64,000 bases of DNA from contig NZ_JAAGOY010000004.1 of NCBI RefSeq assembly GCF_010500215.1, forward strand, positions 1,054,001 to 1,118,000, in the 5' to 3' direction. The number at the start of each line of letters is the position of its first letter. Positions within the stretch are counted from its first letter, which is position 1. Made by a program: the position numbers and the translations under genes. Of this stretch, positions 21,367 to 36,232 are shown in pieces. Below the pieces are notes generated by a model, which worked only from the letters and a program-made list of their open reading frames with translations, was not told the origin of the DNA and made no database searches. Source of the stretch: Aliiroseovarius sp. PrR006 (GTDB lineage: Bacteria; Pseudomonadota; Alphaproteobacteria; Rhodobacterales; Rhodobacteraceae).

Positions 21367-22155
21367 ATGAGCGAGCTGACGCAACTGGACCACGCCCACA
21401 CTGCCATGCAGGCAGACCTGAATGACGACGCTGCACGGTTGCGGTTCTATGAACGACTGGCAGATCGCGAGCTGTTCCTGCTCCTGTCCGCCGAACCGCA
21501 GGGCGAGGATATCGAGCCTGAACTGTTTGAACTCGAGACTGAGAAATACGTGCTGGTCTTTGACCGCGAAGATCGTCTGGCCGAATTCGTCGGCGCCCCT
21601 GCCCCCTACGCTGCCCTTCCGGGACGCATCATTGCAGGAATGCTGTCAGGTCAGGGCATCGGCCTTGGCGTCAATCTGGGCGTCGCGCCCTCGTCCATCC
21701 TGATCCCGGCCGAGGCAATGGACTGGCTGGCCCAGACCCTATCTAGTGCCCCCGACGAGGTCGAAGCACAAATCACCGACATCCTGCCCCCGTCTGCCCC
21801 CGAAGTGTTGCTGAATGCTTTGGCGGAAAAACTTGGGTCGGCGGGCGGCTTGGCACAATACGCCTGTCTGGCAGGCGTAGGCCACGCGGATGGGCGCCGC
21901 GGGCACCTTCTGGCCTTCGTCAATCCCGCCGAAGGCGCCGAGCGCGCGCTTGCGGGGGCCGCGAACGAGGCGCTGACCTTCTCGGGCATTGATGTCGGAG
22001 AGCTGGACGTCGGCTTCTTCGCCGAGACGGACGAGATCGCACAGAAACTGGCCGCCATTGGCCTGCGCTTTGACCTACCCGCCCCGAAAGCACCTGAAAC
22101 TCTTGCGCCGATCGCGCCCGGTTCGAACCCCGAAAAGCCACCGATCCTGAAGTGA
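21367..22155 (+). CDS. SseB family protein
   Basis: Protein of 262 residues. The N-terminal half has the SseB-like pattern: FYERLADRELFLLL, then an E-L-FELETEKYVLVFD strand, then LAEFVG and YAALPGR. A second domain with LAGVGHADGRRGHLLAF follows, and the C-terminus is Pro-rich. The molecular function of this family in non-secretion contexts is not established. It starts 13 bases after the UDG-like gene, so the two are probably one transcript, ended by the hairpin at 22185. Confidence 0.8.
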   Translation: MSELTQLDHAHTAMQADLNDDAARLRFYERLADRELFLLLSAEPQGEDIEPELFELETEKYVLVFDREDRLAEFVGAPAPYAALPGRIIAGMLSGQGIGLGVNLGVAPSSILIPAEAMDWLAQTLSSAPDEVEAQITDILPPSAPEVLLNALAEKLGSAGGLAQYACLAGVGHADGRRGHLLAFVNPAEGAERALAGAANEALTFSGIDVGELDVGFFAETDEIAQKLAAIGLRFDLPAPKAPETLAPIAPGSNPEKPPILK

Positions 22156-22184
22156 TCGGCTGGTGAACCGGACGACGCAATAAG

Positions 22185-22213
22185 AAAAGGGTGCAGGAAA
22201 CCCGCACCCTTTT
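22185..22213 (+). terminator. Rho-independent terminator after sseB-like gene
   Basis: A perfect ten-base stem (AAAAGGGTGC with GCACCCTTTT) encloses a nine-base loop, and the 3' arm ends in four T. It is placed 30 bases after the stop. Confidence 0.85.
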
Positions 22214-22375
22214 CCCTCACCAGGAACGCCCCCGGCAAAGCCGTATTCCTAGGTTAGTATGCCGACCAGTATTTAGGAAAAGTGGCAATCTCATGTCACG
22301 ATTCTATGACATTGTTACTGACACGAAGAAAAATTAGGCATGGCGTGAACAATACACCCCTCAACCATAGATTGA

Positions 22376-22618
22376 TTACTTCTTAGCTTCCAATGCGTCC
22401 AGACGGACCTTCAGCGCCTCGTTTTCCTCGCGCGCTTTCTGAGCCATCGCACGCACGGCGTCGAATTCTTCGCGGGTCACGAAATCACGATCAGCCAGCC
22501 AGCGATCCATCCAGCTTTTCATCGCGGTCTCGGCTTCGTCCTTCGCACCCTGCGCCACGCCCATGGCGTTGGTCATCAGCTGGGAAATATCGTCAAAAAC
22601 CTTGTTGCGCGTCTGCAT
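22376..22618 (-). CDS. ubiK: UbiK-like ubiquinone biosynthesis accessory factor (BMFP family)
   Basis: Small coiled-coil protein of 80 residues. It matches the UbiK/YqiC pattern: an amphipathic N-terminal helix (FDDISQLMTNAMGVAQGAKDE in part), FVTREEFDAVRAMAQKAREEN, and a Lys-rich end LDALEAKK. In related bacteria UbiK assists assembly of the Ubi complex. It is monocistronic, divergent from lgt, with about 95 bases between them. Confidence 0.85.
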   Translation of the reverse strand: MQTRNKVFDDISQLMTNAMGVAQGAKDEAETAMKSWMDRWLADRDFVTREEFDAVRAMAQKAREENEALKVRLDALEAKK

Positions 22619-22712
22619 CTGCTTCTCCTCGCTTGAGCTGCCCCCTATATGGGGCTTTGTGCAGACAGAGACAAGGTTGACTTGCCCTGAAGAAGAGGTT
22701 CAACAACGACGC

Positions 22713-23609
22713 ATGTTTATGGCCATTCCCTTCCCCAATATCGGGCCCGAGATCTTTTCGATCGATCTGGGCAGCTTCACCTTTGCCCTGCGTTGGTACG
22801 CGATGGGCTATCTTGTGGGCATCGCGATCGGCTGGTGGATCATCGCCCGCGCACTGGCCCGTCCGGCGCTGTGGCGAGGCGAACCGCCGATGACGAAGGC
22901 GCAGCTGGAAGATCTGGCGACGTGGATCATCGTCGGCATCATCGCCGGGGGCCGTCTGGGCTTCGTCGCCTTCTATCAACCGGAATACTATCTTGCGAAC
23001 CCCCTGGACATCCCCAAGATCTGGCAGGGCGGCATGTCATTCCATGGGGGTTTTCTGGGCGTCATCGTTGCTGTCTGGCTGTTTAGTCGCCGCAAGGGGC
23101 TGCCAACTGCATCCATCGCGGATCTTCTAGCCATTGCCGCCCCCATCGGCATCGGCCTTGTGCGTGTCGCAAACTTCATCAATGCCGAGTTGTGGGGCCG
23201 CCCGACCACCGCCCCGTGGGGTGTCATTTTCCCCGGAGAATACGCGCAGCACTGCCCCGGCTGGGACGCAGCCCTTGGTGCCTGTGCCCGCCACCCCAGC
23301 CAGCTTTATGAAGCGGTGCTGGAAGGTGCCGTCTTGGCGATTGCACTGCTATATCTGGCCTATCGACGCGACTGGCTAAAAACACCGGGCCGCCTGACTG
23401 GCCTGTTCTTTTTGGGCTACGGCCTATCGCGCTTTGTGGTCGAGTTCTTCCGTCAAGCTGACGCGCAATTCGTCACGCCGGATAACCCATGGGGCCATGT
23501 GATCCGCTTGGGCGATCTGGGCATCACCATGGGCCAGACCCTGACGCTCCCCATGATCGTCATTGGCAGTGCGACGCTTCTCTGGGCCAAACGGCGGGCA
23601 TCGGAATGA
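22713..23609 (+). CDS. lgt: Prolipoprotein diacylglyceryl transferase
   Basis: Inner-membrane enzyme that adds diacylglycerol to the lipobox cysteine, the first step of lipoprotein maturation. The product is 298 residues with seven hydrophobic segments. Conserved blocks are ALRWYAMGY, MSFHGGFLG, GRLGFV and the signature RVANFINAELWGRPT, followed by RHPSQLYEA. ATG 22713 is chosen (GAAGAAGAGG upstream), with ATG 22719 an alternative. The stop overlaps the next start by ATGA. The lipobox proteins in this window (at 37759, 49177 and 53439) would be substrates. Confidence 0.95.
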   Translation: MFMAIPFPNIGPEIFSIDLGSFTFALRWYAMGYLVGIAIGWWIIARALARPALWRGEPPMTKAQLEDLATWIIVGIIAGGRLGFVAFYQPEYYLANPLDIPKIWQGGMSFHGGFLGVIVAVWLFSRRKGLPTASIADLLAIAAPIGIGLVRVANFINAELWGRPTTAPWGVIFPGEYAQHCPGWDAALGACARHPSQLYEAVLEGAVLAIALLYLAYRRDWLKTPGRLTGLFFLGYGLSRFVVEFFRQADAQFVTPDNPWGHVIRLGDLGITMGQTLTLPMIVIGSATLLWAKRRASE

Positions 23610-24700
23610 GTGCTTTAGAAAAGCAACTAATAAATCGCATTTCTAAAGCCGGACCAATCTCGGTTGCGGACTATATGACCGAATGCCTGCTGCATCCCGA
23701 GCACGGATATTACGCCACCCGCGATCCGTTCGGCACAGAGGGTGACTTCACCACCGCACCCGAGATCAGCCAGATGTTCGGCGAGATGCTGGGGCTTGCG
23801 ATTGCGCAGGCATGGCTGGATCAAGGCGCGCCGTCGCCCTTCACGCTGGCTGAGCTTGGGCCGGGGCGCGGCACTCTGATGGCCGACATCCTGCGCGCGA
23901 CCAAGGGCGTGCCGGGGTTTCATGCCGCCGCACAGGTCCATCTGGTCGAGGCTTCGCCCGTGTTGCGCGCCCGTCAGATCGAGCGCCTTGTACCCACCCA
24001 CGTCACCCATCACGACAGCATCGGCACCCTACCCGACGCGCCGTTGTTCCTTGTGGCAAACGAATTCTTCGACGCTCTGCCCATCCGTCAATACCAGCGC
24101 GACGGTGACGGCTGGCGCGAATGTCAGGTGGGGCTTGAGGGCGACAAACTCGCCATGGGCCTGACCGCCCCCCTGCCTGTCCCGGCTCTGGACCATCGGC
24201 TGGACGACACGCAAGACGGCGACGTGGTCGAGATCTGCGCGCCCGCCCAAGGTGTCATGGCCAAACTGGCAGATTTCATCGACGCGCATGGCGGAACCGC
24301 GTTTATCATCGACTATGGCGACTGGCGCTCTGTCGGCGATACGTTTCAGGCGCTGAAGGACCACGCACCGGTGCCGGTGCTGGACACACCCGGCGAGGCC
24401 GACCTGACTGCCCATGTGGATTTCGAGGCCTTGGCCCGCGCTGCCACCCCCCTAAGCGCGCACCAAATGACCCCGCAAGGCGTGTTTCTCGAACGTCTCG
24501 GCATCACTGCCCGCGCCCAAGCACTAGCTGGAAAGCTCAGCGGCGAGGCACTGGACAGCCACATCGCAGCACACCGACGCTTGACGCACCCGGACGAAAT
24601 GGGGACGCTCTTTAAAGTGCTGGGACTGACTCGCGCCGACGCGCCCGATCTGCCCGGCCTGCAGCGCAACCAATCACAGGCCCGCCCCGATGGCACTTGA
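23606..24700 (+). CDS. MidA/NDUFAF7-like SAM-dependent methyltransferase
   Basis: Protein of 364 residues of the DUF185 family. Motifs are YMTECLLHPEHGYY, GDFTTAPEISQMFGEMLG, ELGPGRGTLMADIL (SAM-binding), VANEFFDALPIRQY and FIIDYGD. The mitochondrial relative NDUFAF7 dimethylates an arginine of complex I; the bacterial role is probably similar protein methylation, but this is inference. ATG 23606 overlaps the lgt stop, and the end overlaps pgeF by 11 bases, giving an lgt-midA-pgeF operon. Confidence 0.88.
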   Translation: MSALEKQLINRISKAGPISVADYMTECLLHPEHGYYATRDPFGTEGDFTTAPEISQMFGEMLGLAIAQAWLDQGAPSPFTLAELGPGRGTLMADILRATKGVPGFHAAAQVHLVEASPVLRARQIERLVPTHVTHHDSIGTLPDAPLFLVANEFFDALPIRQYQRDGDGWRECQVGLEGDKLAMGLTAPLPVPALDHRLDDTQDGDVVEICAPAQGVMAKLADFIDAHGGTAFIIDYGDWRSVGDTFQALKDHAPVPVLDTPGEADLTAHVDFEALARAATPLSAHQMTPQGVFLERLGITARAQALAGKLSGEALDSHIAAHRRLTHPDEMGTLFKVLGLTRADAPDLPGLQRNQSQARPDGT

Positions 24701-25448
24701 GATCCTGACCTCTGACGCCCTTAGCCAGACACGGCACGGGTTCTTCACCCGCAAGGGTGGCGCGTCTTCGGGCGTGTATGCCGGGTTGAACTGCGGCAGC
24801 GGCAGCAAGGATCAGGCCGAACTGGTCCAAATTAACAAAGACCGCGTGGCGCATGCGCTGGGCGTGGCCCCAAGCCATCTGTGCGGCGTCTATCAAGTAC
24901 ATTCCCCTGATGTGGTCGTTGCCGACGGCCCGATTACCGGTGACAAGCCACATGCAGATGCCGTCGTGAGCGCCACACCGGGACTTGCCTTGTCTATCTT
25001 AACGGCGGATTGCCAGCCAGTCCTGTTCTCGGACCCCGGTGCCAAAGTGATTGGCGCGGCGCACGCGGGCTGGAAAGGCGCAATTGGCGGCGTATTGGAA
25101 GCCACGCTCGACGCAATGGAAGCACTTGGTGCAACTCGGGCCAATATAACCGCCGTGATTGGCCCGACAATCAGTCCGAACGCCTACGAGGTCGGACCTG
25201 AGTTCCGCGAGGAGTTCTTGGGGCTCAACGACGACTACGCCCGCTTCTTCACCGATGGGAAGGGCGACCGCGCCATGTTCGACCTGCCTGCCTTCGGCTT
25301 ACATCGCTTGAATGCCGCCGGGGTTAAGCACGCAGAATGGACTGGTCACTGCACCTATTCCGACCCCGAGCGGTTCTATTCCTATCGCCGCACCTGCCAT
25401 AAGAACGAGCCGGACTATGGCAGGCTCATCTCGGCGATCCGGCTGTAA
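24690..25448 (+). CDS. pgeF: Peptidoglycan editing factor PgeF (multicopper-oxidase-fold, YfiH family)
   Basis: Protein of 252 residues of the YfiH/laccase-domain family, associated with removal of mis-incorporated residues from peptidoglycan precursors and with purine nucleoside reactions. The metal-site residues are present: ADCQPVLF (Cys), GAAHAGWKG (His) and TGHCTYS (His, Cys). RHGFFTRKGG at the start and YSYRRTCHKNEPDYGR at the end are also typical. Overlaps the preceding gene by 11 bases and closes the operon. Confidence 0.9.
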   Translation: MALEILTSDALSQTRHGFFTRKGGASSGVYAGLNCGSGSKDQAELVQINKDRVAHALGVAPSHLCGVYQVHSPDVVVADGPITGDKPHADAVVSATPGLALSILTADCQPVLFSDPGAKVIGAAHAGWKGAIGGVLEATLDAMEALGATRANITAVIGPTISPNAYEVGPEFREEFLGLNDDYARFFTDGKGDRAMFDLPAFGLHRLNAAGVKHAEWTGHCTYSDPERFYSYRRTCHKNEPDYGRLISAIRL

Positions 25449-25461
25449 CCCGACAAACAAA

Positions 25462-25488
25462 AATGCCGCCAACGATGTGGGCGGCATT
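25462..25488 (-). terminator. Terminator between pgeF and lrp-type gene
   Basis: A nine-base stem (AATGCCGCC with GGCGGCATT) with a nine-base loop. On the minus strand it is followed by TTTTTGTTTG, which fits a terminator for the Lrp-type gene. It may also stop the converging pgeF transcript. Confidence 0.75.
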
Positions 25489-25513
25489 CCAGCAATCGAC
25501 AGAAATGTAATTC

Positions 25514-26014
25514 TTACGGCGTGTCTTCCATCCGTGCTTCCAGCACGTCAAACGGCACACCCGGTTCATCCTTAGCCCCGCGAATGACCAGCGAGGTCTT
25601 CACCGACGCCACATTTTCCGCTGACGTCAGCTGTTCGGTCAGGAAGCTTTGGAACGTCGACAGGTCGGGGGCGACACATTTCAGGATGAAATCCACCTCG
25701 CCGTTCAGCATGTGACATTCGCGGACCAGCGGCCAATCGCGGCACTGTTCCTCGAACGCGGACAGATCGACCTCGGCCTGACTGACCAGTCCAACCATCG
25801 CGAAGACCTGCACTTCGAAGCCCAGCGCGCGGGCGTCCACATCCGCGTGATAGCCCCGGATCAACCCATGCTCTTCCAGCGTGCGCACCCGCCGCAGACA
25901 GGGCGGTGCGGAAATCCCGACGCGCTTGGCGAGTTCCACGTTGGTCATGCGACCGTCGGCCTGAAGTTCGGCCAGAATCATACGGTCGATGGGGTCAAGT
26001 TTGCTTGCGGACAT
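25514..26014 (-). CDS. Lrp/AsnC family transcriptional regulator
   Basis: Protein of 166 residues. The N-terminal helix-turn-helix reads ELAKRVGISAPPCLRRVRTLEE, and the C-terminal RAM domain has VECHMLNGE-like text (RECHMLNGEVDFILK) at the amino-acid binding site. Family members sense amino acids and often autoregulate. It is divergent from trxB, and the space between them contains an inverted repeat with TTGC cores. The inducing amino acid is not predictable from sequence. Confidence 0.9.
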   Translation of the reverse strand: MSASKLDPIDRMILAELQADGRMTNVELAKRVGISAPPCLRRVRTLEEHGLIRGYHADVDARALGFEVQVFAMVGLVSQAEVDLSAFEEQCRDWPLVRECHMLNGEVDFILKCVAPDLSTFQSFLTEQLTSAENVASVKTSLVIRGAKDEPGVPFDVLEARMEDTP

Positions 26015-26094
26015 TGAGTTGCCTTCTGATGAGCATCCGGTAGCACGCCAAGCGGCGGCTTATGATCGGAAATTGCGCAGAGATTACATCTACA

Positions 26095-26111
26095 TGTTGC
26101 ATTGCGCAACA
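26095..26111. promoter_or_regulatory. Inverted repeat between lrp-type gene and trxB (candidate Lrp site)
   Basis: TGTTGC-ATTGC-GCAACA is a perfect six-base inverted repeat with a five-base centre, and further TTGCGCA or GCGCAA words lie at 26072-26079 and 26124-26130. Spaced TTGC repeats are typical targets of Lrp/AsnC proteins. The position fits autoregulation, control of trxB, or both. Confidence 0.45.
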
Positions 26112-26257
26112 ATCTTTCGCACCCGCGCAACATCATTTCTTGATGAAACCGCCGTCGACACCATCACGGGGTCGTGACGGGCTCGGGCTCGGGCCTTTCA
26201 ATACAGGTCCGGCTCGCTTATATGCGTCACGAACCAAGAAAGCTCAAGGAAGTTCCA

Positions 26258-27199
26258 ATGTCCGAGACCCGCCACACCAAAGTTCTGATCATCGGCTCCG
26301 GCCCTGCTGGCTACACCGCTGGCGTTTACGCCTCGCGCGCCATGTTGGAGCCGATCCTTGTGCAAGGCATGGAACCGGGTGGCCAGCTGACCACCACGAC
26401 CGAGGTCGAGAACTACCCCTCCTTCATCGACATCCAAGGCCCCGAGTTGATGATGAAGATGGAAGAGCATGCCCGCGCTATGGGGACCGAAGTGATTGGT
26501 GATCTGATCGTGGATCTGGACATCTCGAAACGCCCTTTCACCGCCAAGGGTGATAGCGGCACGGTTTATACTGCCGATGCCGTCATTCTGGCCACCGGCG
26601 CCCGCGCCAAATGGCTGGGGCTTGAGAGCGAAGAGAAGTTCAAGGGCTTCGGCGTGTCTGCCTGTGCGACCTGTGACGGCTTCTTCTATCGCGGCGAGGA
26701 AATCGTCGTGGTGGGCGGCGGCAACACCGCAGTCGAGGAAGCGCTGTTCCTGACCAAGTTTGCCTCGAAAGTAACGCTGATCCACCGCCGCGACACGCTG
26801 CGTGCGGAAAAGATCCTGATCGACCGCTTGATGAAGAACGAAAAGATCGTGCCTCTGTGGGATCACCAACTGGACGAGGTCGTGGGCGACGAAAACCCGC
26901 TGGGCGTCACCGGCGTGCGCGCCAAACACGTCAAAACCGGCGAGATCACCGAGATCCCAGCAAAGGGTGTTTTCATCGCGATCGGCCACGCACCCGCCAA
27001 CGAGTTGGTGAAAGATACGCTGGAAACCCACATGGGCGGCTATGTTGTGACCAAACCGGATTCGACCGCGACGTCTGTCCCCGGCGTTTTCGCCGCGGGC
27101 GACCTGACGGACCACAAATACCGTCAGGCCGTGACCTCGGCTGGGATGGGCTGCATGGCCGCGCTGGAAGCCGAGCACTTCCTGTCTGAGAACGAATAA
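26258..27199 (+). CDS. trxB: Thioredoxin reductase
   Basis: FAD/NADPH flavoenzyme that reduces thioredoxin in the cytosol. The product is 313 residues. The FAD motif IIGSGPAGYTAG is at 11-22, the redox disulfide CATC at 136-139 followed by DGFF, NADPH motif VVGGGNTAVEEALF, and the C-terminal FAD block GVFAAGDLTDHKYRQAVTSAG. The frame opens at 26174, but AAGGAAGTTCC directly precedes ATG 26258 (MSETRHTKV). A strong terminator follows. Confidence 0.96.
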   Translation: MSETRHTKVLIIGSGPAGYTAGVYASRAMLEPILVQGMEPGGQLTTTTEVENYPSFIDIQGPELMMKMEEHARAMGTEVIGDLIVDLDISKRPFTAKGDSGTVYTADAVILATGARAKWLGLESEEKFKGFGVSACATCDGFFYRGEEIVVVGGGNTAVEEALFLTKFASKVTLIHRRDTLRAEKILIDRLMKNEKIVPLWDHQLDEVVGDENPLGVTGVRAKHVKTGEITEIPAKGVFIAIGHAPANELVKDTLETHMGGYVVTKPDSTATSVPGVFAAGDLTDHKYRQAVTSAGMGCMAALEAEHFLSENE

Positions 27200-27226
27200 A
27201 CGTTCGGACCCACCCCAAACACATCT

Positions 27227-27252
27227 AAAAGGCGGCCCTTTGGCCGCCTTTT
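27227..27252 (+). terminator. Rho-independent terminator after trxB
   Basis: AAAAGGCGGCC and GGCCGCCTTTT form an eleven-base stem with a four-base loop, followed by more T. It is placed about 28 bases after the stop codon. Confidence 0.9.
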
Positions 27253-27396
27253 TTGCACCTCGCCCCACGTGAATTTCCCGCGTTCGCTCTTATTTACGCA
27301 ACACTGTTCCCCAATCCACACAGTCCCGGCAACATTCCCCGTAAATTAGAATTCTGCCGAAATACTCCTTTGTCGAACAGGTGTTTCATGCGAAGC

Positions 27397-27410
27397 GTTC
27401 ACGCGTGAAC
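27397..27410. promoter_or_regulatory. Perfect palindrome upstream of the MarR-Sat-CysC gene (candidate operator)
   Basis: GTTCACGCGTGAAC is a perfect 14-base inverted repeat that ends 19 bases before the start codon at 27430, in a spot where a bound regulator would block transcription or initiation. MarR-type proteins bind palindromes of this size. Regulation by the fused winged-helix domain itself is inference. Confidence 0.55.
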
Positions 27411-27429
27411 ACACTTTGAGTCGTATGAC

Positions 27430-29505
27430 ATGCCGTCAACCGAAGCCAAACCAAACCCCGAGGAAGAGGATCAACTCTTCCGCCTTCTGCGCCAACTGGA
27501 TACGGCGCCAGAGGCATCGCAACGTGCGATTGCGTCAGCCATCGGGGTGTCTTTGGGGCGGCTAAACGCGCTTCTGCGTGCGACGGTCGATGCTGGGCTG
27601 ATTACGATCAGCAACCGCAACGGCCCCGACAAGCGCCAGCGGTATTCTTACTCGCTGACCGCACGCGGCGCGTCCGAGAAGGTGCGGCTCACAGACATTT
27701 TCTTGAACCGCAAGCTTGCAGAATATGACGCATTGCACGCGGAACTAACCGGTACAACCAGCGGCCTGGTTCCGCTTAAACACAGGACCAATCTTATGGA
27801 AAACAATCTTGCTCCAATCCCCGAACTTTACGTCAGCCACGAAAGCGCGCTGAAGCTGAAAGTCGAAGCGGCGGACCTGACCAGCCATGACCTGACCCCG
27901 CGCCAGATCTGCGACCTCGAGCTTCTGATGAACGGCGGCTTCAACCCGCTGAAGGGCTTCTTGTCGGAAGAAGACTATAACGGCGTTGTGGAAAACATGC
28001 GCTTGGCCGACGGCCAATTGTGGCCGATGCCGATCACACTGGACGTGTCGGAAGACTTCGCCCAGTCGATCGAACTGGGTCAGGACATCGCGCTGCGCGA
28101 TCAGGAAGGCGTCATTTTGGCCACCATGACCGTGACCGACCGCTGGGAGCCGAACAAGGCCAATGAGGCCGAGAAAGTCTTTGGCGCCGACGACGACGCC
28201 CACCCTGCTGTAAACTATCTGCACAATCAGGCTGGCAAGATCTATCTGGGTGGTCCGGTTGTCGGCATCCAGCAGCCTGTGCACTACGATTTCCGCGGTC
28301 GCCGTGACACCCCGAACGAGCTGCGCGCCTATTTCCGCAAGCTGGGTTGGCGCAAAGTTGTGGCCTTCCAAACCCGTAACCCACTGCACCGCGCACACCA
28401 GGAACTGACCTTCCGCGCCGCGAAAGAAGCGCAGGCCAACCTGCTGATCCACCCGGTTGTCGGCATGACCAAGCCGGGCGATGTGGATCACTTCACCCGC
28501 GTACGCTGCTACGAGGCCGTGCTGGACAAATACCCGGCATCGACGACCTCGATGAGCCTTCTGAACCTCGCCATGCGTATGGCAGGCCCGCGTGAAGCCG
28601 TCTGGCACGGTCTGATCCGCGCGAACCACGGCTGCACCCACTTCATCGTTGGTCGTGACCACGCCGGCCCCGGCAAGAACTCGGCTGGTGAAGATTTCTA
28701 CGGTCCCTACGACGCGCAAGAGCTTTTCCGCGCGAACCAATCGGAAATTGGCTGCGAAATGGTCGACTTCAAGCACATGGTCTATGTGCAGGAACGCGCC
28801 CAGTACGAACCCAATGACGAGATCAAGGACCGCGACAGCGTCACCATCCTGAACATCTCGGGCACCGAACTGCGCCGCCGCCTGTCCGAAGGCCTTGAGA
28901 TCCCCGAGTGGTTCTCGTTCCCGGAAGTGGTGAAAGAGCTGCGCCGCACCAAGCCGCCGCGTTCGAAGCAAGGCTTCACCGTGTTCTTCACCGGCTTCTC
29001 GGGCTCGGGCAAGTCGACCATCGCCAACGCGCTAATGGTGAAACTGATGGAACAGGGCGGCCGCCCCGTGACACTTCTGGATGGTGACATCGTGCGTAAA
29101 AACCTGTCGAGCGAGCTTGGCTTCTCGAAAGAGCACCGCGACCTGAACATCCGTCGCATCGGCTACGTGGCCTCCGAGATCACCAAGAACGGTGGCATCG
29201 CGATCTGTGCGCCCATCGCGCCCTACGCAACCACCCGCCGTGCCGTACGTGAGGACATCGAACAGTTCGGTGCGTTTGTGGAAGTGCACGTTGCGACCTC
29301 GATCGAGGAATGTGAACGCCGCGACCGCAAGGGGCTGTATAAACTGGCCCGCGAAGGCAAGATCAAAGAGTTCACCGGCATCTCGGACCCCTATGACGTG
29401 CCCCTAAACCCGGAACTGTCGGTCGAAACTGAAAACGTCGACGTCGACAACTGCGCCCATCAGGTTCTGCTGAAGCTGGAAAGCTTGGGGCTGGTGAAAG
29501 CCTGA
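27430..29505 (+). CDS. MarR-like winged helix fused to bifunctional ATP sulfurylase/APS kinase
   Basis: One continuous 691-codon frame. Residues 1-122 resemble the MarR-family EPS-associated regulators: DQLFRLLRQLDTAPEASQRA, AIGVSLGRLNALLRA and a long C-terminal helix with RKLAEYDALHAEL. From Met123 (ATG 27796) the sequence is a standard 569-residue Sat-CysC. The sulfurylase part has QTRNPLHRAHQ (from about residue 314) and VGRDHAGPG; the APS kinase part has the P-loop FTGFSGSGKST (about 520-530) and DGDIVR. Together they make APS and then PAPS from sulfate and ATP. A weak AGGA lies eight bases before ATG 27796, so an unfused enzyme could also be made. No stop codon separates the parts. Whether the full fusion is the main product is unknown. 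Confidence 0.88.
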   Translation: MPSTEAKPNPEEEDQLFRLLRQLDTAPEASQRAIASAIGVSLGRLNALLRATVDAGLITISNRNGPDKRQRYSYSLTARGASEKVRLTDIFLNRKLAEYDALHAELTGTTSGLVPLKHRTNLMENNLAPIPELYVSHESALKLKVEAADLTSHDLTPRQICDLELLMNGGFNPLKGFLSEEDYNGVVENMRLADGQLWPMPITLDVSEDFAQSIELGQDIALRDQEGVILATMTVTDRWEPNKANEAEKVFGADDDAHPAVNYLHNQAGKIYLGGPVVGIQQPVHYDFRGRRDTPNELRAYFRKLGWRKVVAFQTRNPLHRAHQELTFRAAKEAQANLLIHPVVGMTKPGDVDHFTRVRCYEAVLDKYPASTTSMSLLNLAMRMAGPREAVWHGLIRANHGCTHFIVGRDHAGPGKNSAGEDFYGPYDAQELFRANQSEIGCEMVDFKHMVYVQERAQYEPNDEIKDRDSVTILNISGTELRRRLSEGLEIPEWFSFPEVVKELRRTKPPRSKQGFTVFFTGFSGSGKSTIANALMVKLMEQGGRPVTLLDGDIVRKNLSSELGFSKEHRDLNIRRIGYVASEITKNGGIAICAPIAPYATTRRAVREDIEQFGAFVEVHVATSIEECERRDRKGLYKLAREGKIKEFTGISDPYDVPLNPELSVETENVDVDNCAHQVLLKLESLGLVKA

Positions 29506-29527
29506 TCGCTGAAAATTCTAAGGAAAA

Positions 29528-29556
29528 GCCCGGCCATCGCGCCGGGCTTTTTCGTT
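29528..29556 (+). terminator. Rho-independent terminator after the Sat-CysC gene
   Basis: GCCCGGC and GCCGGGC form a seven-base GC stem with loop CATCGC, extended by flanking A-T pairs and followed by TTTTTCGTTTTTT. Lies 23 bases after the stop. Confidence 0.92.
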
Positions 29557-29650
29557 TTTTGGGGCTTTGCCCCCGCGTGAAGACCCCCTGGGCCTTCACA
29601 CTCCCCCAGGATATTTGGAACAAGGAAAGGCGCAAGAAGGGCCCAGTGTA

Positions 29651-30757
29651 TTAACTGCTCAACCCATCCGGCATCGGGTTCCAGTCGAAATAGGCTTTGA
29701 CGATTCCGTGGTCGGACGCGCCCAGCTCTTCTTCAAAGCTTTCGCGGTTCAGGTGGTCGTTGATCACCTCCATCTCGCGGAAGGACCACAGGCGCTTGCG
29801 GGAGTGGTCATAGAACTCTTCGCTGACCAAAATATGATCAAGGCTCTCGCGCTTATGTTTGTAGACATGGGTGTAATAGACATGCCTCATGGATCGGTAT
29901 TGTTGCAGGCGTTCGACGGAGTAGAGCCCCTTGTCGGATGTCAGCCCAGCGCGGCCTTTCTGCACCACACGATAGGTGGGCTGGTCGGAAATCAACTCGT
30001 TCGTCACGGACATCGTGTCGTCGTTCAGGTCGCCCATCACGATGGTGGGCGAAATGTCGTCTTCATCCTCGGACTTCATCCAGCCATCCAGCAGCACACG
30101 CAGCGCACCAGCCTCCATCACGCGGCGGATATGGGCCAGTGACGATTTCGCGTGCTTGGCGTGATGTTGCAGGATCAGGGGTTGCGGCTGCGCGAAGGAC
30201 ACGCGGGCCGGACCTTTGGATTTCAGATGCGCCACAACGACGCGCACCTCGGGCGGCTTGGGGCCGGTGCCTTCGGACTGGATCCGCGCCACCAGAAGCG
30301 GACGCGAGAATTTGTTGATGGTGATGGTGACCTCTTCCTCGGCCCCGGCAGTTTCGCGCACCTTGTCAAAGCGGAATTGCGGCGGGAAATCCGCGTGCCA
30401 GCCCCCATCGACCAACTGAGAATTGCCGTCCCGGCCCTTGCGCACCGCCAACGCGACCTGAGGTCGCCCCCGCCCCGGCGCATCCCGCGCCACGAGGTCA
30501 TAGTCATTGGTCAATCCGGCCTCGGCAAAGCATTCGCGCAGGGCCAACGTGGACCAGAGTTCCTGAAAGGCGATGACCTCGGCGTCGACCTCTTTCAGGC
30601 GCGCGGCGGTCCAGCGTATCTTGCGTTGGTAATAAGCGCGACCTTCGGCGTCGTCCTCGATATGGGGACGGTTGGAATAGGTGATCCCACCCGGGACCTG
30701 TAGATTGAAAAGATTGATCGTCGCGAAGCTGAGATCGCGCATATTCGCACGGGCCAT
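29651..30757 (-). CDS. Endonuclease/exonuclease/phosphatase (EEP) family protein
   Basis: Protein of 368 residues with the EEP fold shared by exonuclease III, DNase I and phosphoesterases. Key residues are in ATINLFNLQ (Asn), VIAFQELW (catalytic Glu), HLKSKG, VMGDLNDD (Asp-Asn) and ASDHGIV (Asp-His). No signal peptide is visible, so it is probably cytosolic. The substrate could be nucleic acid or a phosphate ester. A GGAGGACTTTGTC ribosome site precedes ATG 30757. Stands alone, convergent with the Sat-CysC gene. Confidence 0.8.
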   Translation of the reverse strand: MARANMRDLSFATINLFNLQVPGGITYSNRPHIEDDAEGRAYYQRKIRWTAARLKEVDAEVIAFQELWSTLALRECFAEAGLTNDYDLVARDAPGRGRPQVALAVRKGRDGNSQLVDGGWHADFPPQFRFDKVRETAGAEEEVTITINKFSRPLLVARIQSEGTGPKPPEVRVVVAHLKSKGPARVSFAQPQPLILQHHAKHAKSSLAHIRRVMEAGALRVLLDGWMKSEDEDDISPTIVMGDLNDDTMSVTNELISDQPTYRVVQKGRAGLTSDKGLYSVERLQQYRSMRHVYYTHVYKHKRESLDHILVSEEFYDHSRKRLWSFREMEVINDHLNRESFEEELGASDHGIVKAYFDWNPMPDGLSS

Positions 30758-30844
30758 GACAAAGTCCTCCTGAAATCAACTACAGGAAGAATAGCATGAT
30801 TCTGTATGATTGCGTGATAGCGGGCGGGTTTCGCCCTTTGTGAC

Positions 30845-31258
30845 CTAGGCTTTGGTGATTGTGATGGTCTGAACCACGGTCTCTGGCTCGGCCCGTTCCA
30901 GATCGATGTGTAGAAGCCCGTTTTCGGTCTTGGCGCCGACAACCTCGACCCCTTCGGCCAGCACGAAGCTTTTCATGAACTGGCGGGCAGCAATACCACG
31001 ATGCAGGAAAACCCGACCTTCATGCGTGTCGCCCTGCGACCCACGGATCACCAGTTTGGCGTTCTCGACCGTGATCGACAGATCGTCATCCGCAAATCCG
31101 GCCACGGCCAGCGTGATCCGATAGGCCCGGTCCGAGACCTGTTCGATATTGAATGGGGGGTAGCCATCTTTGCCGGATTTCGCGGCCTGTTCGACCATGC
31201 GTTCCAGCTGCTCGAAGCCCAACAGAAAGGGATGCGTTCCCAAGCTTACTTTCGTCAT
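30845..31258 (-). CDS. Small heat-shock protein, Hsp20/IbpA family
   Basis: ATP-independent holdase of 137 residues. The alpha-crystallin domain runs from about residue 33 to 125, with ITLAVAGFADDDLSI, LVIRG, a FLHRGIAARQF loop and the closing strand NGLLHIDLER, which carries the G-L variant of the conserved A-x-x-x-G-V-L region. The MTKVSLGTHPFLLGFEQLERM N-terminus matches IbpA-like proteins. I chose ATG 31258, since the extra codons upstream have no family character. I saw no clear ROSE element or heat-shock promoter. Confidence 0.92.
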   Translation of the reverse strand: MTKVSLGTHPFLLGFEQLERMVEQAAKSGKDGYPPFNIEQVSDRAYRITLAVAGFADDDLSITVENAKLVIRGSQGDTHEGRVFLHRGIAARQFMKSFVLAEGVEVVGAKTENGLLHIDLERAEPETVVQTITITKA

Positions 31259-31419
31259 CGACACGTCCTTGAATAAGCGACACGTTTCATATGGCCCCCG
31301 CAGGCAACCACTTCTTGAATATGGGTGTCCCTCCAATCAGTTGCAAGGCGGCTTTTACTTGGCGATTGCGCCCGGCTGACGTTATGATCCGGCGACCACT
31401 CAACGAGAACGACTCGAAA

Positions 31420-31638
31420 ATGAGCAATGCCAAAGAAATGAAGACCGACGACGTGCTCCGCGTAGAGCTCGAGGTCTTCCGCGCCGAACATCGGGATCTA
31501 GACGAAGCCATCCACGCGCTTGAGGAAAGCGGGCGGGCGGATCAGTTGCGCCTGCGCCGCTTGAAAAAGCAAAAGCTGGCCCTGAAAGACAAAATCGCCC
31601 GGATCGAGGACAAATTGACCCCGGATATTATTGCCTGA
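31420..31638 (+). CDS. YdcH/DUF465 family small protein
   Basis: Protein of 72 residues, mostly helical and charged, with the DUF465 pattern LEVFRAEHRDLDEAIHALEE and LRRLKKQKLALKDKIARIED. The function of the family is unknown. It is common in alphaproteobacteria as a small coiled-coil protein. The frame is open to 31291, but only the part from ATG 31420 fits the family. It precedes purE by 76 bases. A second DUF465-like gene lies at 58759. Confidence 0.8.
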   Translation: MSNAKEMKTDDVLRVELEVFRAEHRDLDEAIHALEESGRADQLRLRRLKKQKLALKDKIARIEDKLTPDIIA

Positions 31639-31714
31639 CTGCAACGCAGCATTGCATCAAGGGGCGTGAAGCCTGTATGGAAACGCCAACTGACGCAAGG
31701 GATGCGAGGGACAC

Positions 31715-32203
31715 ATGACGGACGTGAAAGTCGGGATTATCATGGGCAGCCAGTCGGACTGGCCCACGATGAAAGAAGCCGCCACCATTTTGGACGAGCT
31801 GGGCATCGCCTATGAGACCAAGATCGTCTCGGCGCACCGCACCCCGGACCGTTTGTGGGACTATGGCAAGACCGCAGCCGATCGCGGGCTGCACGTGATC
31901 ATCGCAGGCGCTGGTGGCGCGGCCCACCTGCCCGGCATGATGGCGTCGAAAACCCGTGTGCCTGTTGTGGGCGTGCCGGTACAGACGCGCGCGCTGTCGG
32001 GTGTCGACAGCCTCTATTCCATCGTGCAGATGCCCAAGGGCTTCCCAGTCGCGACCATGGCGATTGGTGCGGCGGGTGCTGCCAATGCAGGCCTGATGGC
32101 GGCTGGCATTCTGGCGATCTCGGACGCTGACCTTGCAACCCGGCTGGATGCGTGGCGTGACGCGCTGTCGGCCTCGATCCCGAATGAACCCTCGGATGAC
32201 TGA
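31715..32203 (+). CDS. purE: 5-(carboxyamino)imidazole ribonucleotide mutase
   Basis: Class I PurE of 162 residues, converting N5-CAIR to CAIR in purine synthesis. The motif [13 protein letters not shown] is at the N-terminus, VSAHRTPDR carries the catalytic His, and [14 protein letters not shown] and PVVGVPVQ follow. Its stop overlaps the purK start by eight bases, so the two-step carboxylation enzymes are co-translated. Confidence 0.96.
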
Positions 32204-33272
32204 TATGCTGCAAACAGGCGCCACCATTGGTATTCTTGGCGGTGGCCAGCTGGGCCGCATGCTGTCGGTCGCGGCTTCGCGCCTTGGCTTCAAGACACAC
32301 ATTTTTGAACCGGGTGCAAACCCGCCTGCCGGTCAGGTGGCCGACCGTGTGACCACCGCAGGCTATGACGACATCGCCGCGCTCGAAGCCTTCGCCGCCT
32401 CGGTCGATGTCATCACCTATGAATTCGAGAACATCCCCACCACCGCACTGGACGCGCTGGAAGCGCACAAGCCGATCCGCCCGGGTCGCGAGGCGCTGCG
32501 CGTCAGCCAAGACCGCCTGACCGAGAAGGACTTCTTGTCCGGTCTAGGCCTGAAGGTCGCACCCTACGCGAATGTGGAAAGCGCCGAGGACATGGCCACT
32601 GCCATCGCACAGATCGGCACGCCCTCGATCCTGAAAACCCGCCGCTTTGGCTATGACGGCAAGGGACAGGCGCGGCTGAAGTCCGACGCAGATGCCGAGG
32701 CAGCGCTGGCAGACATGCAGGGCGCACCAGCGGTTCTGGAAGGCTTCGTAAACTTCAGCCATGAGGTAAGCGTGATCGCTGCGCGTGGCATCGGCGGCGA
32801 CGTCGCCTGTTTTGATCCCGGCCAGAATGTGCACAAAGACGGCATTCTGGATACGACAACAGTGCCCGCAAACCTGACCGCCTCGCAGCGGATGGATGCG
32901 GTGCTTCTGGCCGCCAACATCCTGAACGCACTGGATTATGTGGGCGTCATGGGGGTTGAGCTGTTTGTCACGCCGCAAGGGCTGATCGTGAACGAAGTCG
33001 CCCCGCGTGTGCACAACTCGGGCCACTGGACTCAGCAGGGCTGCACCATCGACCAGTTCGAACAACACATCCGCGCCGTGGCTGGCTGGCCGCTGGGCGA
33101 TGGATCGCGCTACGCGGACGTGGTGATGGAAAACCTGATCGGCGACGACATGGATCGCGTACCCGAGATTGCGCGCGAGGGAAATGCCTCGCTCCACCTC
33201 TATGGCAAGGCGGACGTCAAGCCGGGGCGCAAGATGGGCCACGTGAATCGCATCACACCGCGCCAAAGCTGA
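32196..33272 (+). CDS. purK: 5-(carboxyamino)imidazole ribonucleotide synthase
   Basis: ATP-grasp enzyme of 358 residues that makes N5-CAIR from AIR, bicarbonate and ATP. Features are [12 protein letters not shown] near the start, the EFENIP block, [15 protein letters not shown] (ATP-grasp) and [16 protein letters not shown] chose ATG 32196, overlapping purE; ATG 32205 is also possible. A terminator hairpin follows. Confidence 0.96.
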
Positions 33273-33293
33273 TTCACGACTAGAAAATCACCG

Positions 33294-33330
33294 ATCGCTC
33301 GCGAGAAATCAGCGGGCGATTTTCTTTTTT
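33294..33330 (+). terminator. Terminator after purK
   Basis: ATCGCTCGC pairs with GCGGGCGAT (one G-T pair) around a nine-base loop, followed by TTTCTTTTTT. Confidence 0.85.
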
Positions 33331-33500
33331 CCAAGAACAGTTTCAGCTCAGATTTCCCTTTACCCATCCACCGGCAACAATACCCCGCGCCAAGTGATCA
33401 TTCCGACACGCGTACCAGATATTGAGAGATAAAAGTTCCCACACCAACATTTTGTAGATAAAAGAGATCAATCATTTTTTGCGATTGAAAACGAGTTTTG

Positions 33501-34217
33501 ATGATGATGAAGACTGCCGGCCTCTTGACCTGTGCAACCGTGATTTTTTCAGCTGGAGCCGCGCTGGCGGGATCCTTGAATGATCCGGTAATCACCCCCG
33601 TCACACCTGTCGTTGAAGACCCTAAACCTTGGCAAGGTGCGTATGTCGGGGGCACACTCGGGTATCATTTCGCCGGTGGTGACCGGATCGGACTTACGCC
33701 CGCCATCGGCCCGTCGTTCAGCACCGGGGAAGAGCTGAACATTAGCGGCCCGGCCGTATCCTTGCGCGCTGGTTATCGCTGGCAGTTCAGCGATTTTGTT
33801 GTCGGAGGCGAGATTGCCGCCGAAGCTGGGAATGTCGAGGACAGTTTCACGGGCGGAGCCTATAGCGGGTCGACGAAACTGAACCACGCGCTTTCGCTTC
33901 GTGTGAAAGCGGGCGTTGCATCGAAGCTCTTTGGCTCTTTCATCTACGGCACCGTCGGCCTGTCGCGCGCCGAGTTTGACTATGTCATCTCGGGCTCTGG
34001 TGGCGGCGGAGCAGTGTCCTTTGATGACACCTATTCCACCAACGGCTATATCCTTGGCGTTGGGTTCGAGCGTCCGCTCTCGGATCGGTGGACTCTGACC
34101 GGCGATTATGAGTACGTCAATTTCGGCACGGACGAACTGACAGATGGCGCAGGGAACACCACCTTGGCAACGCCGCTGTTCCACACAATCAAGCTGGGTG
34201 TGAACTATAACTTCTAA
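33501..34217 (+). CDS. Outer-membrane beta-barrel protein, Omp25/porin-like
   Basis: Protein of 238 residues with a signal peptide (cleavage after ALAG near residue 24) and an eight-strand barrel pattern of alternating hydrophobic and polar residues with many Gly and aromatic residues. Typical pieces are WQGAYVGGTLGYHF, RAGYRWQF, FGSFIYGTVGLSRAEFDY, GFERPLSDRWTLTGDYEYVNFG and the terminal Phe after NYN, required for barrel assembly. It resembles the Omp25/RopB family of alphaproteobacteria. Several ATGs follow each other at the start; 33501 is the first. Confidence 0.8.
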   Translation: MMMKTAGLLTCATVIFSAGAALAGSLNDPVITPVTPVVEDPKPWQGAYVGGTLGYHFAGGDRIGLTPAIGPSFSTGEELNISGPAVSLRAGYRWQFSDFVVGGEIAAEAGNVEDSFTGGAYSGSTKLNHALSLRVKAGVASKLFGSFIYGTVGLSRAEFDYVISGSGGGGAVSFDDTYSTNGYILGVGFERPLSDRWTLTGDYEYVNFGTDELTDGAGNTTLATPLFHTIKLGVNYNF

Positions 34218-34248
34218 GCCATGTGGCGCACCTTAAACGGGCGTGCTA

Positions 34249-34734
34249 TTAGGCCAACCTGCGGAACGGACGTAGAAACGCGCCCAGAAGCAGCGACACG
34301 ACCAGCCAGCCGCCCACGTACCCGATCCCGGCACACAAAAGGCCGTCCGCGGTCACGGGAACGGCTGGGCGGTATTCGATCCATGTGCGCTCTACCAGAT
34401 CCACATCGCGGAAATGCCACAGCTTGGTTAGGCGCATCAGGGGCTCTGTTCCCTTCAGCGCTGTATAGGACGCATCCAGCTGATCGTAGCGGTCAAAGTT
34501 GTCCTGCATCTGGTTGCGCAGATCGTTCTGGAAGTCCGACCCGCTCATCTGATCAAGTGCTTGCTCGCGGGTATATCCGGCTGCGTTTGCCGTTAGATCG
34601 AACCCGGTGGTGATCACTTTCAGCTCGGTCCGCGCACCGGACAGACGCTGCATGTACTGCTGTGTGAACTCGGGAAACTGGCTGAGCGACACGGCGCCTG
34701 CCAAGCCACCCATCAAGGCCAATATTCGGATCAT
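34249..34734 (-). CDS. DUF2937 family membrane protein
   Basis: Protein of 161 residues with an N-terminal hydrophobic segment (residues 3-19), the family-typical LSQFPEFTQQYMQRL, a soluble helical middle with DNFDRYDQL, and a C-terminal transmembrane segment (GLLCAGIGYVGGWLVVSLLLG in part) followed by a basic tail. The function is unknown. Stands alone, tail to tail with the barrel-protein gene. Confidence 0.75.
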   Translation of the reverse strand: MIRILALMGGLAGAVSLSQFPEFTQQYMQRLSGARTELKVITTGFDLTANAAGYTREQALDQMSGSDFQNDLRNQMQDNFDRYDQLDASYTALKGTEPLMRLTKLWHFRDVDLVERTWIEYRPAVPVTADGLLCAGIGYVGGWLVVSLLLGAFLRPFRRLA

Positions 34735-34835
34735 GGTCTGCTCTCACTTATGTGGTGTGTTTTCACAAACACTAGCGCAGGGCAGCTTCCCCCGTCAAAG
34801 GGGCCGCTTCCCGACTTGGTCTCGCCCCAAGAAAA

Positions 34836-34859
34836 AAGCCCCCGGAAATCCGAGGGCTT
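34836..34859 (-). terminator. Terminator after proS
   Basis: On the minus strand a hairpin (AAGCCCTCGG with CCGGGGGCTT, one mismatch) is followed by TTTT, 20 bases beyond the proS stop. Confidence 0.8.
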
Positions 34860-34879
34860 CTTTGTTTTACAGGCCAAGA

Positions 34880-36232
34880 TCAGAGGCCGGTCACGCGGTG
34901 CGGTTCGTAGATCTCGATGATCTTGGCGATGGCCGCTTCCGGCGTCATCTCTTCGCTTTCGCCGGTGCGGCGGCTGGTCACCTCGACCACACCGTTCTTC
35001 AGGCCACGCGGGCCCACAGTGATGCGCCATGGCAGGCCGATCAGGTCCATGGTGGCGAACTTGCCACCGGCACGCTCCTTGCGGTCGTCATAGAGCGGCT
35101 CGAGCCCTGCATTGGTCAGGGCCTTATAAAGTGCCTCGCAAGCCTCGTCGGCGGCCTCGTCGCCCTGTTTCAGGTTCACGATGCCACAGTGGAACGGAGT
35201 CACGCCCTCGGGCCAGATGATGCCGTTATCGTCATGCGATGCTTCGATGATCGCGCCCAGCAGGCGGCTAACGCCAATTCCGTGCGACCCCATATGGACC
35301 GGAACCTGTTTCTGCTCGCTGTCGATCACTTTGGCGCCCATGGACTCAGAGTACTTGGTGCCGAAATAGAAGATCTGGCCGACTTCGATGCCGCGCGCGA
35401 CGCGGCGACGCTCTTCCGGAACCTCGTTGAAGATCGCTTCGTCATGGGTTTCATCGGTACGGGCATATTTCGAGGTGAACTCTTCCAGAACGCCCTGACA
35501 CTGCTCGACGCTGTCATAGTCGATCTCGCGGTCGCCGAAGGTCAGGTCGGTCACAGCGCTGTCATAGAACACTTCCGACTCGCCGGTTTCAGCCAGCACA
35601 AGGAATTCATGCGTATAGTCGCCACCAATCGGGCCACCATCGGCACGCATCGGGATGGCCTGCAGCCCCATACGCTCGTAGGTACGCAGGTAGCTGACAA
35701 GGTGACGGTTATAAGCGTGCAGCGCATCTTCTTTGGTCAGGTCGAAGTTATAGCCGTCCTTCATATAGAATTCGCGGCCACGCATCACACCGAAACGCGG
35801 GCGGATCTCGTCGCGGAATTTCCACTGGATTTGATAGAGAGTCAGCGGCAGGTCCTTATAGCTCGACACGTTCGAGCGGAAGACGTCGGTGATGACCTCT
35901 TCGTTGGTGGGACCATAGAGCATATCGCGGCCGTGACGGTCTTCGATGCGCAGCATCTCTTCGCCGTAATCGTCGTAGCGACCACTTTCGCGCCACAGAT
36001 CGGCGGGCTGGATCGTGGCCATCTGCATCGGAATGTGACCCGCGCGGATCTGTTCCTCGTGCACAATGTTTTCGATCTTGCGCAGGACTTTGAAGCCCAG
36101 CGGCAGCCAAGTGTAGATGCCGGCGGCTTGCTGTTTGATCATGCCGGCCCGCAGCATGTAACGGTGGCTGACAATCTGGGCGTCTGCCGGGGTTTCTTTC
36201 AACACGGGCAGGAAATAGCGGGACAGGCGCAT
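34880..36232 (-). CDS. proS: Prolyl-tRNA synthetase (short alphaproteobacterial type)
   Basis: Class II aminoacyl-tRNA synthetase of 450 residues that lacks the large editing insertion of the E. coli enzyme, as is usual in this class of bacteria. Motif 2 lies around [26 protein letters not shown] (shown in part), motif 3 at [14 protein letters not shown], and the anticodon-binding domain follows from about residue 340. Starts with [15 protein letters not shown]. Single gene with its own terminator. Confidence 0.96.

Follow-up and report, generated by a model that had tools for sequence, protein, structure and literature searches.

A winged-helix domain fused to ATP sulfurylase-APS kinase, with a linked upstream palindrome and a second translation start, suggests a self-repressing trigger enzyme

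Bacteria begin sulfur assimilation, and the route to PAPS, by activating sulfate; in fungi, ATP sulfurylase is controlled by PAPS. In BirA, an N-terminal winged helix is joined to an adenylate-forming enzyme. PutA, BirA, and NadR of E. coli are presented, in the passages of PMC8249747 that treat them, as trigger enzymes possessing their own DNA-binding domain, and PutA is described there as repressing through the spacer adjoining its own gene. Within sulfur metabolism, the available text of PMC4848566 describes PAPS reductase A of Tuber melanosporum, an enzyme of sulfate assimilation, as having a second role in transcription, where it serves as an activator by way of a C-terminal polypeptide. 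A search of titles and abstract openings in the open-access literature, with subscription journals largely outside it, returned no paper on the fusion described here, and the family to which its DNA-binding domain is related, TIGR04176, is named there in just two papers.

The fused gene lies in the window (the whole stretch of DNA analysed, 64 kb, within which positions are numbered) and is associated with the following features.

26258..27199, + strand: trxB, thioredoxin reductase, the upstream neighbour (Pfam Pyr_redox_2, 166.7 bits)
27368..27372, + strand: CTTTG box, a possible -35-like element (conserved, 81 loci)
27387..27395, + strand: possible -10-like box, consensus TATGCNATG, here CATGCGAAG (conserved; putative role)
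27397..27410, + strand: candidate palindromic operator GTTCACGCGTGAAC (conservation, link to the domain)
27430..29505, + strand: fused gene, long product of 691 aa (open frame, domain matches)
27463..27750, + strand: MarR_EPS-type winged-helix domain, residues 12-107 (TIGR04176 profile match, AlphaFold domain model)
Residues 42-54 of the 691-aa protein: recognition helix, which includes Asn46
27739..27795, + strand: residues 104-122, covering the last part of the long helix plus the linker (conserved in fused proteins)
27784..27787, + strand: internal Shine-Dalgarno AGGA, formed by the Arg119 codon AGG and one further base (80/80 fused genes)
27796..27798, + strand: internal start at Met123, which would give the short, 569-aa product (conserved start codon)
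27817..28947, + strand: PUA-like and ATP sulfurylase domains (PF14306, PF01747)
28969..29424, + strand: APS kinase domain (PF01583, 200.5 bits)
29522..29553, + strand: terminator-like hairpin 3' of the fused gene (13 pairs and a T run)

The reading preferred here, which sequence comparison makes fairly probable, is that the gene encodes a self-repressing trigger enzyme and does so from two nested translation starts. Initiation at 27430 would give a 691-aa protein whose MarR_EPS-type winged helix would bind directly to GTTCA-N4-TGAAC at 27397-27410, abutting the promoter-like box, and the bound protein would lower, rather than raise, transcription of its own gene. Initiation at the internal site, 27796, would give the plain 569-aa ATP sulfurylase-APS kinase, both products thereby being made. 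Control over binding would come from ligands of the enzyme itself (APS or PAPS) or from the proportion of long to short subunits within the oligomer.

The fusion of a winged-helix domain to Sat-CysC is real. As the original prediction had it, a single stop-free frame (27430-29505, 691 aa) joins the domain to the enzyme, and the enzyme is complete: the bifunctional Sat/CysC profile NF004040 matches residues 120-690 at 1027.7 bits (cut-off 669) with both catalytic parts present, and the motifs QTRNPLHRAH, GRDHAGPG, and GFSGSGKST are all intact. The proposed resemblance of the N-terminal domain to MarR-family EPS-associated regulators is borne out by profile search, in which TIGR04176 MarR_EPS passes marginally over residues 12-107 (90.5 bits, cut-off 88), and the Pfam domains found in the protein are HTH_24, PUA_2, ATP-sulfurylase, and APS_kinase. 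Because the TIGR04176 match at residues 12-107 is accompanied by a complete Sat-CysC at residues 120-690, the domain extends a full enzyme and replaces no part of it; by sequence, an intact enzyme and a DNA-binding domain are present in one chain, as in a trigger enzyme. Among genomes of the same genus, where a stop codon or frameshift between the two parts was looked for, the whole stop-free frame is found in 18 of 21; in the remaining three the frame is split over contig ends (G500) or the domain is absent (G497 and G499). Terminator-like hairpins occur at five sites in the region, compared with 3.2 expected from shuffles. A defence function was considered and rejected, the sole padloc match being weak (16.8 bits).

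In a sample of 198 Rhodobacteraceae genomes, one per genus, Sat-CysC scores over its cut-off in 158 and the fused frame is present in 36, where fused denotes a frame of 690-797 aa that holds a TIGR04176 match and runs on into the enzyme, and one genome with the gene at a contig edge (G032) is left out of the count. The domain itself scores 76-88 bits, below the TIGR04176 cut-off, in 25 of the 36. A search of named genomes gave 107 loci with a relative of the domain, of which 80 were kept; these span about 30 named genera according to record titles, and comprise 79 in-frame fusions and one locus (L047) that runs off its contig. The domain pair that was to be looked for in relatives is carried by many marine Rhodobacteraceae. 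A fusion beyond the family was looked for and rejected: in 289 genomes of the class, the TIGR04176 matches from outside the family gave no frame longer than 490 aa. Many other alphaproteobacteria carry a TIGR04176-like domain scoring about 47-72 bits, usually within a frame of some 190-345 aa, and these are possibly a separate regulator family.

A Sat-CysC tree was built from 82 fused enzymes and 38 without the domain (one row, L244, comprising the last 569 residues only). It requires at least 14 changes of the fused state, eight of them forced by well-supported branches, and rejects a single clade of fused enzymes (p-AU 3e-5). Both an old fusion with many losses and gene transfer would fit this tree. 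A TrxB match is found in 77/80 fused loci, and in at least 36 of these it ends no more than 500 nt upstream; it is also found in 30/60 of the one-kb stretches (700 nt upstream) taken from domain-less sat-cysC genes. In the loci that have this neighbour, the domain thus appears to have come or gone without a change of chromosomal position. The two congeners without the domain, G497 (locus L245) and G499 (L246), also lack the palindrome, and in both the sole ATG of the enzyme's frame before the enzyme lies one codon ahead of the Met123 column, the start being counted by ATG, with GTG or TTG also possible. These two genomes provide natural losses within the genus for comparison with the fused form.

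The AlphaFold model of the domain alone has a mean pLDDT of 84.7 and consists of a winged helix followed by a long C-terminal helix. This predicted model has the character of a MarR-type winged helix, matching MarR structures with a Foldseek E of 4.8e-5 and a VIA Z of about 12, PadR and Sso10a folds scoring equal to MarR (VIA Z up to 12.1). The whole-protein model is poor (mean pLDDT 52.5), and therefore only its domain is usable. At the end of the long helix, the segment AELTGTTSGL (residues 104-113) shows a conservation of 0.86-1.00 per position across the 80 fused proteins and was not seen in 30 aligned stand-alone relatives; being both conserved and fusion-specific, it points tentatively to a functional joint linking the domain with the enzyme. 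Five comparisons against the window gene give dN/dS values of 0.09-0.13 for the HTH and 0.03-0.06 for the enzyme, which, by comparison, indicate purifying selection on the domain.

The candidate operator GTTCACGCGTGAAC is a perfect palindrome whose end lies 19 bp ahead of the start codon, and it has no other match in the 64-kb window when up to two mismatches are allowed. Since 26 of 100 window shuffles also give a palindrome match at up to two mismatches, the palindrome alone is little proof, and it is conservation that constitutes the evidence. GTTCA-N4-TGAAC is present within 150 nt upstream of 78/80 fused genes, and the looser GTTCN6GAAC in 80/80, with no further exact copy in the 937 kb of the 80 fused loci. 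In the 700 nt upstream of 60 domain-less sat-cysC genes the exact form is found in none and the looser form in three, 175-348 nt upstream; these controls come from the 122 domain-less genes that score over cut-off (158 minus 36), of which 20 were initially chosen for long upstream frames and the others roughly by score. The operator goes with the domain in 7/7 independent tree pairs on well-supported branches (sign test p 0.016), operator state being defined as presence within 150 nt and four rows being left out. Comparison thus ties an operator at the regulated gene to the domain, as would be expected of a trigger enzyme. The earlier suggestion that the domain could act at DNA gains from this comparative support, the palindrome beside the gene being specific to the fusion and common to stand-alone relatives.

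Two boxes near the operator are conserved across 81 loci, CTTTG at -29 to -25 from it (up to 1.74 bits per position) and the TATGCNATG box at -10 to -2 (up to 1.62 bits per position). A sigma-70 scan gave no consensus promoter, and the position of the transcription start is consequently a guess. A second copy of the palindrome is located 26-32 bp further upstream in 14/81 loci (L053, L058, and L110 among them), and an operator beside conserved boxes, together with this second copy, would suit a repressor. The second copy takes the form GTTCT-N4-TGAAC, with one half-site altered, in 12 of the 14 loci. In one fused gene (L082) the ATG sits within the palindrome.

The internal ribosome site is likewise conserved on comparison. 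Arg119 is encoded by AGG in 80/80 fused genes, with A as the next base in all, and the codon eight bases after AGGA is ATG in 68, GTG in 11, and TTG in one. Elsewhere AGG is a rare Arg codon, with a share of 1.8% over residues 1-115 and of 0.2% across the enzyme, and among 515 sites it is Arg119 that has the tightest codon constraint, at 3.40 bits versus 1.41 for the next site. GTG accounts for 39% of Val codons elsewhere in the fused genes, but for 11/11 at residue 123. AGGA at exactly the Arg119 place is found in 0/60 domain-less genes, although their start codons vary in position, and this absence argues that the internal AGGA is not a plain leftover; some AGG lies within about 20 nt in 25 of these 60 genes.

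The original prediction had regarded the internal ribosome site as weak, in contradiction to the predicted anti-Shine-Dalgarno pairing, which averages -4.14 kcal/mol at this site (80/80 at or below -3.9) but only -2.22 kcal/mol at the first start (79/80 scored, L082 left out). The starts of domain-less sat genes have a predicted mean of -3.41 (57/60 scored), not far from the internal site, and 1218 other in-frame ATGs have a mean of -1.75, with 5.3% pairing as well as the internal-site mean. The accompanying suggestion that two products are possible is upheld by the retention of the internal AGGA and a start codon in 80/80 genes. Two products are likely, and the plain enzyme is probably the major one.

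A more specific form of self-repression may be put forward tentatively, in which the two nested starts would make up a sensor: long repressor and short enzyme-only subunits would share one oligomer, and their ratio, together with the state of the oligomer on binding APS or PAPS, would determine if a pair of winged helices can form on the operator. Should this be true, the synthase itself would measure and cap PAPS synthesis, and the enzyme-only form would be an anti-repressor.

The internal ribosome site, for which the prediction is more favourable than for the first start, is also what would be expected if nearly all protein started at Met123 and the N-terminal part were a passenger, functionless or only structural, and the two congeners that keep the enzyme without the domain are consistent with this as well. 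Such an explanation is nevertheless improbable in view of the low dN/dS of the HTH relative to the window gene, the invariant residues in both domain and linker, and a palindrome that appears and disappears along with the domain.

Self-repression further supposes that the fused domain is what binds the palindrome, and here the stand-alone TIGR04176 genes of the family are informative. The exact palindrome lies within 220 nt upstream in 11/30 of their loci, some GTTC or GCTC version in 25/30, and no site in 5/30; the palindrome is positioned 84-149 nt before the matched start. Where the position of residue 46 is Asn, the site is of the GTTC type in 11/11; where it is His or Tyr, GCTC or mixed sites are found in 11/14 and GTTC in 3/14 (Fisher p 1.2e-4, kinship ignored). 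Another H-type regulator with a GTTC site, L249, stands outside the 14 counted. These data suggest a recognition rule for the TIGR04176 family in which Asn at residue 46 corresponds to GTTC, and residue 46 is Asn in 80/80 fused proteins. A stand-alone TIGR04176 match over cut-off is absent from 32/36 fused genomes, including the window genome, where no second TIGR04176 match was found at E 0.001. The fused domain is therefore the natural candidate for the palindrome binder, and its residue 46 is consistent with binding to GTTCA-N4-TGAAC.

The absence of a stand-alone match from those 32 genomes also weighs against the idea that the palindrome belongs to another regulator, or acts as an RNA hairpin, and only accompanies the fused gene. 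A stand-alone paralogue over cut-off does exist in 4/36 fused genomes, and another in congener G494, and GTTCACGCGTGAAC could fold as RNA into a 5-bp hairpin. However, the half-sites are kept as sequence, with no compensatory change, in 78/80 loci, and the stand-alone relatives have the palindrome at their own upstream positions, so that this explanation has a low probability. No Rfam family reaches threshold in 26900-29700, and no Rfam match was found in eight loci, seven of them stand-alone; an RNA element was rejected on these grounds.

The stand-alone loci have a further feature of their own, TGCGG[TC]AGC, which occurs within 170 nt before the matched start in 26/30 and which presumably resembles the ops element. 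By analogy, it suggests that an RfaH/NusG-type antiterminator may act on the EPS operons of TIGR04176 regulators.

The neighbours of the fused gene at 22000-36000 are trxB, an Lrp type, Exo_endo_phos, HSP20, and housekeeping genes, most of them named by eye. Regulators of the TIGR04176 family are associated with exopolysaccharide gene clusters, going by the family name. No such association is found for the fused gene at 22000-36000, and given these non-EPS neighbours its domain is classed here as a related domain and not as an EPS regulator. The window genome contains six exact palindromes, located upstream of sat, upstream of chvI, in a gap between convergent genes, and within three coding sequences (genes assigned by eye); the chvI copy, L117:1501-1514 (G000:C10:7675-7688), has its end 27 bp ahead of the likely start of chvI, and its spacer was found again in one congener genome, G488, among the matches listed. 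Seven exact congener palindromes were examined; each falls within a coding frame, which is that of EF-Tu in four cases. Because the own-genome and congener palindromes lie mostly in coding frames or in the convergent gap, the regulator is probably local. The suggested link to sulfated exopolysaccharide is unsupported within this scope: the genome has no other TIGR04176 match at E 0.001, and none of the exact palindromes considered, six in the own genome and seven examined from the congener matches listed, is at an EPS promoter. Activation of its own gene by the protein, or control of others (chvI or EPS genes, for example), is an unlikely alternative to predominant self-repression, since the chvI site, the one own-genome site to favour it, has its spacer in that single congener among the matches listed, and the congener sites examined are all intracoding.

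The arrangement at this locus can be compared with several described systems. Among solved structures, the best relative is the Penicillium ATP sulfurylase (1i2d/1m8p), to which residues 142-689 align at 667.7 bits, and among the matches listed no solved relative covers residues 1-122 in its best stretch. With the stand-alone TIGR04176 regulators, the fused protein shares the domain, the recognition-helix type, and the upstream palindrome family; it differs from them in having its own linker, in its location among non-EPS genes, and in a domain that falls under the family cut-off in most fused genomes (25/36), whereas the stand-alone loci differ from the fused gene in carrying the ops-like leader element (26/30). 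Truffle PAPS reductase A is the closest sulfur case found and, as far as the available text of PMC4848566 describes it, works differently, being a eukaryotic activator, while the fused gene is proposed to encode a winged-helix autorepressor. Compared with PutA, BirA, and NadR as they are portrayed in the relevant passages of PMC8249747, the fused gene similarly combines a metabolic enzyme and a DNA-binding function in a single chain, but the enzyme is an ATP sulfurylase-APS kinase, the winged helix is of another family, and a conserved internal start would give the enzyme free of the domain. The trigger-enzyme type is thus known, and it is the enzyme and the conserved second start that appear to be new, in a locus that offers a ready genetic system: a single operator and a single gene, two predicted isoforms, and losses that arose naturally within the same genus.
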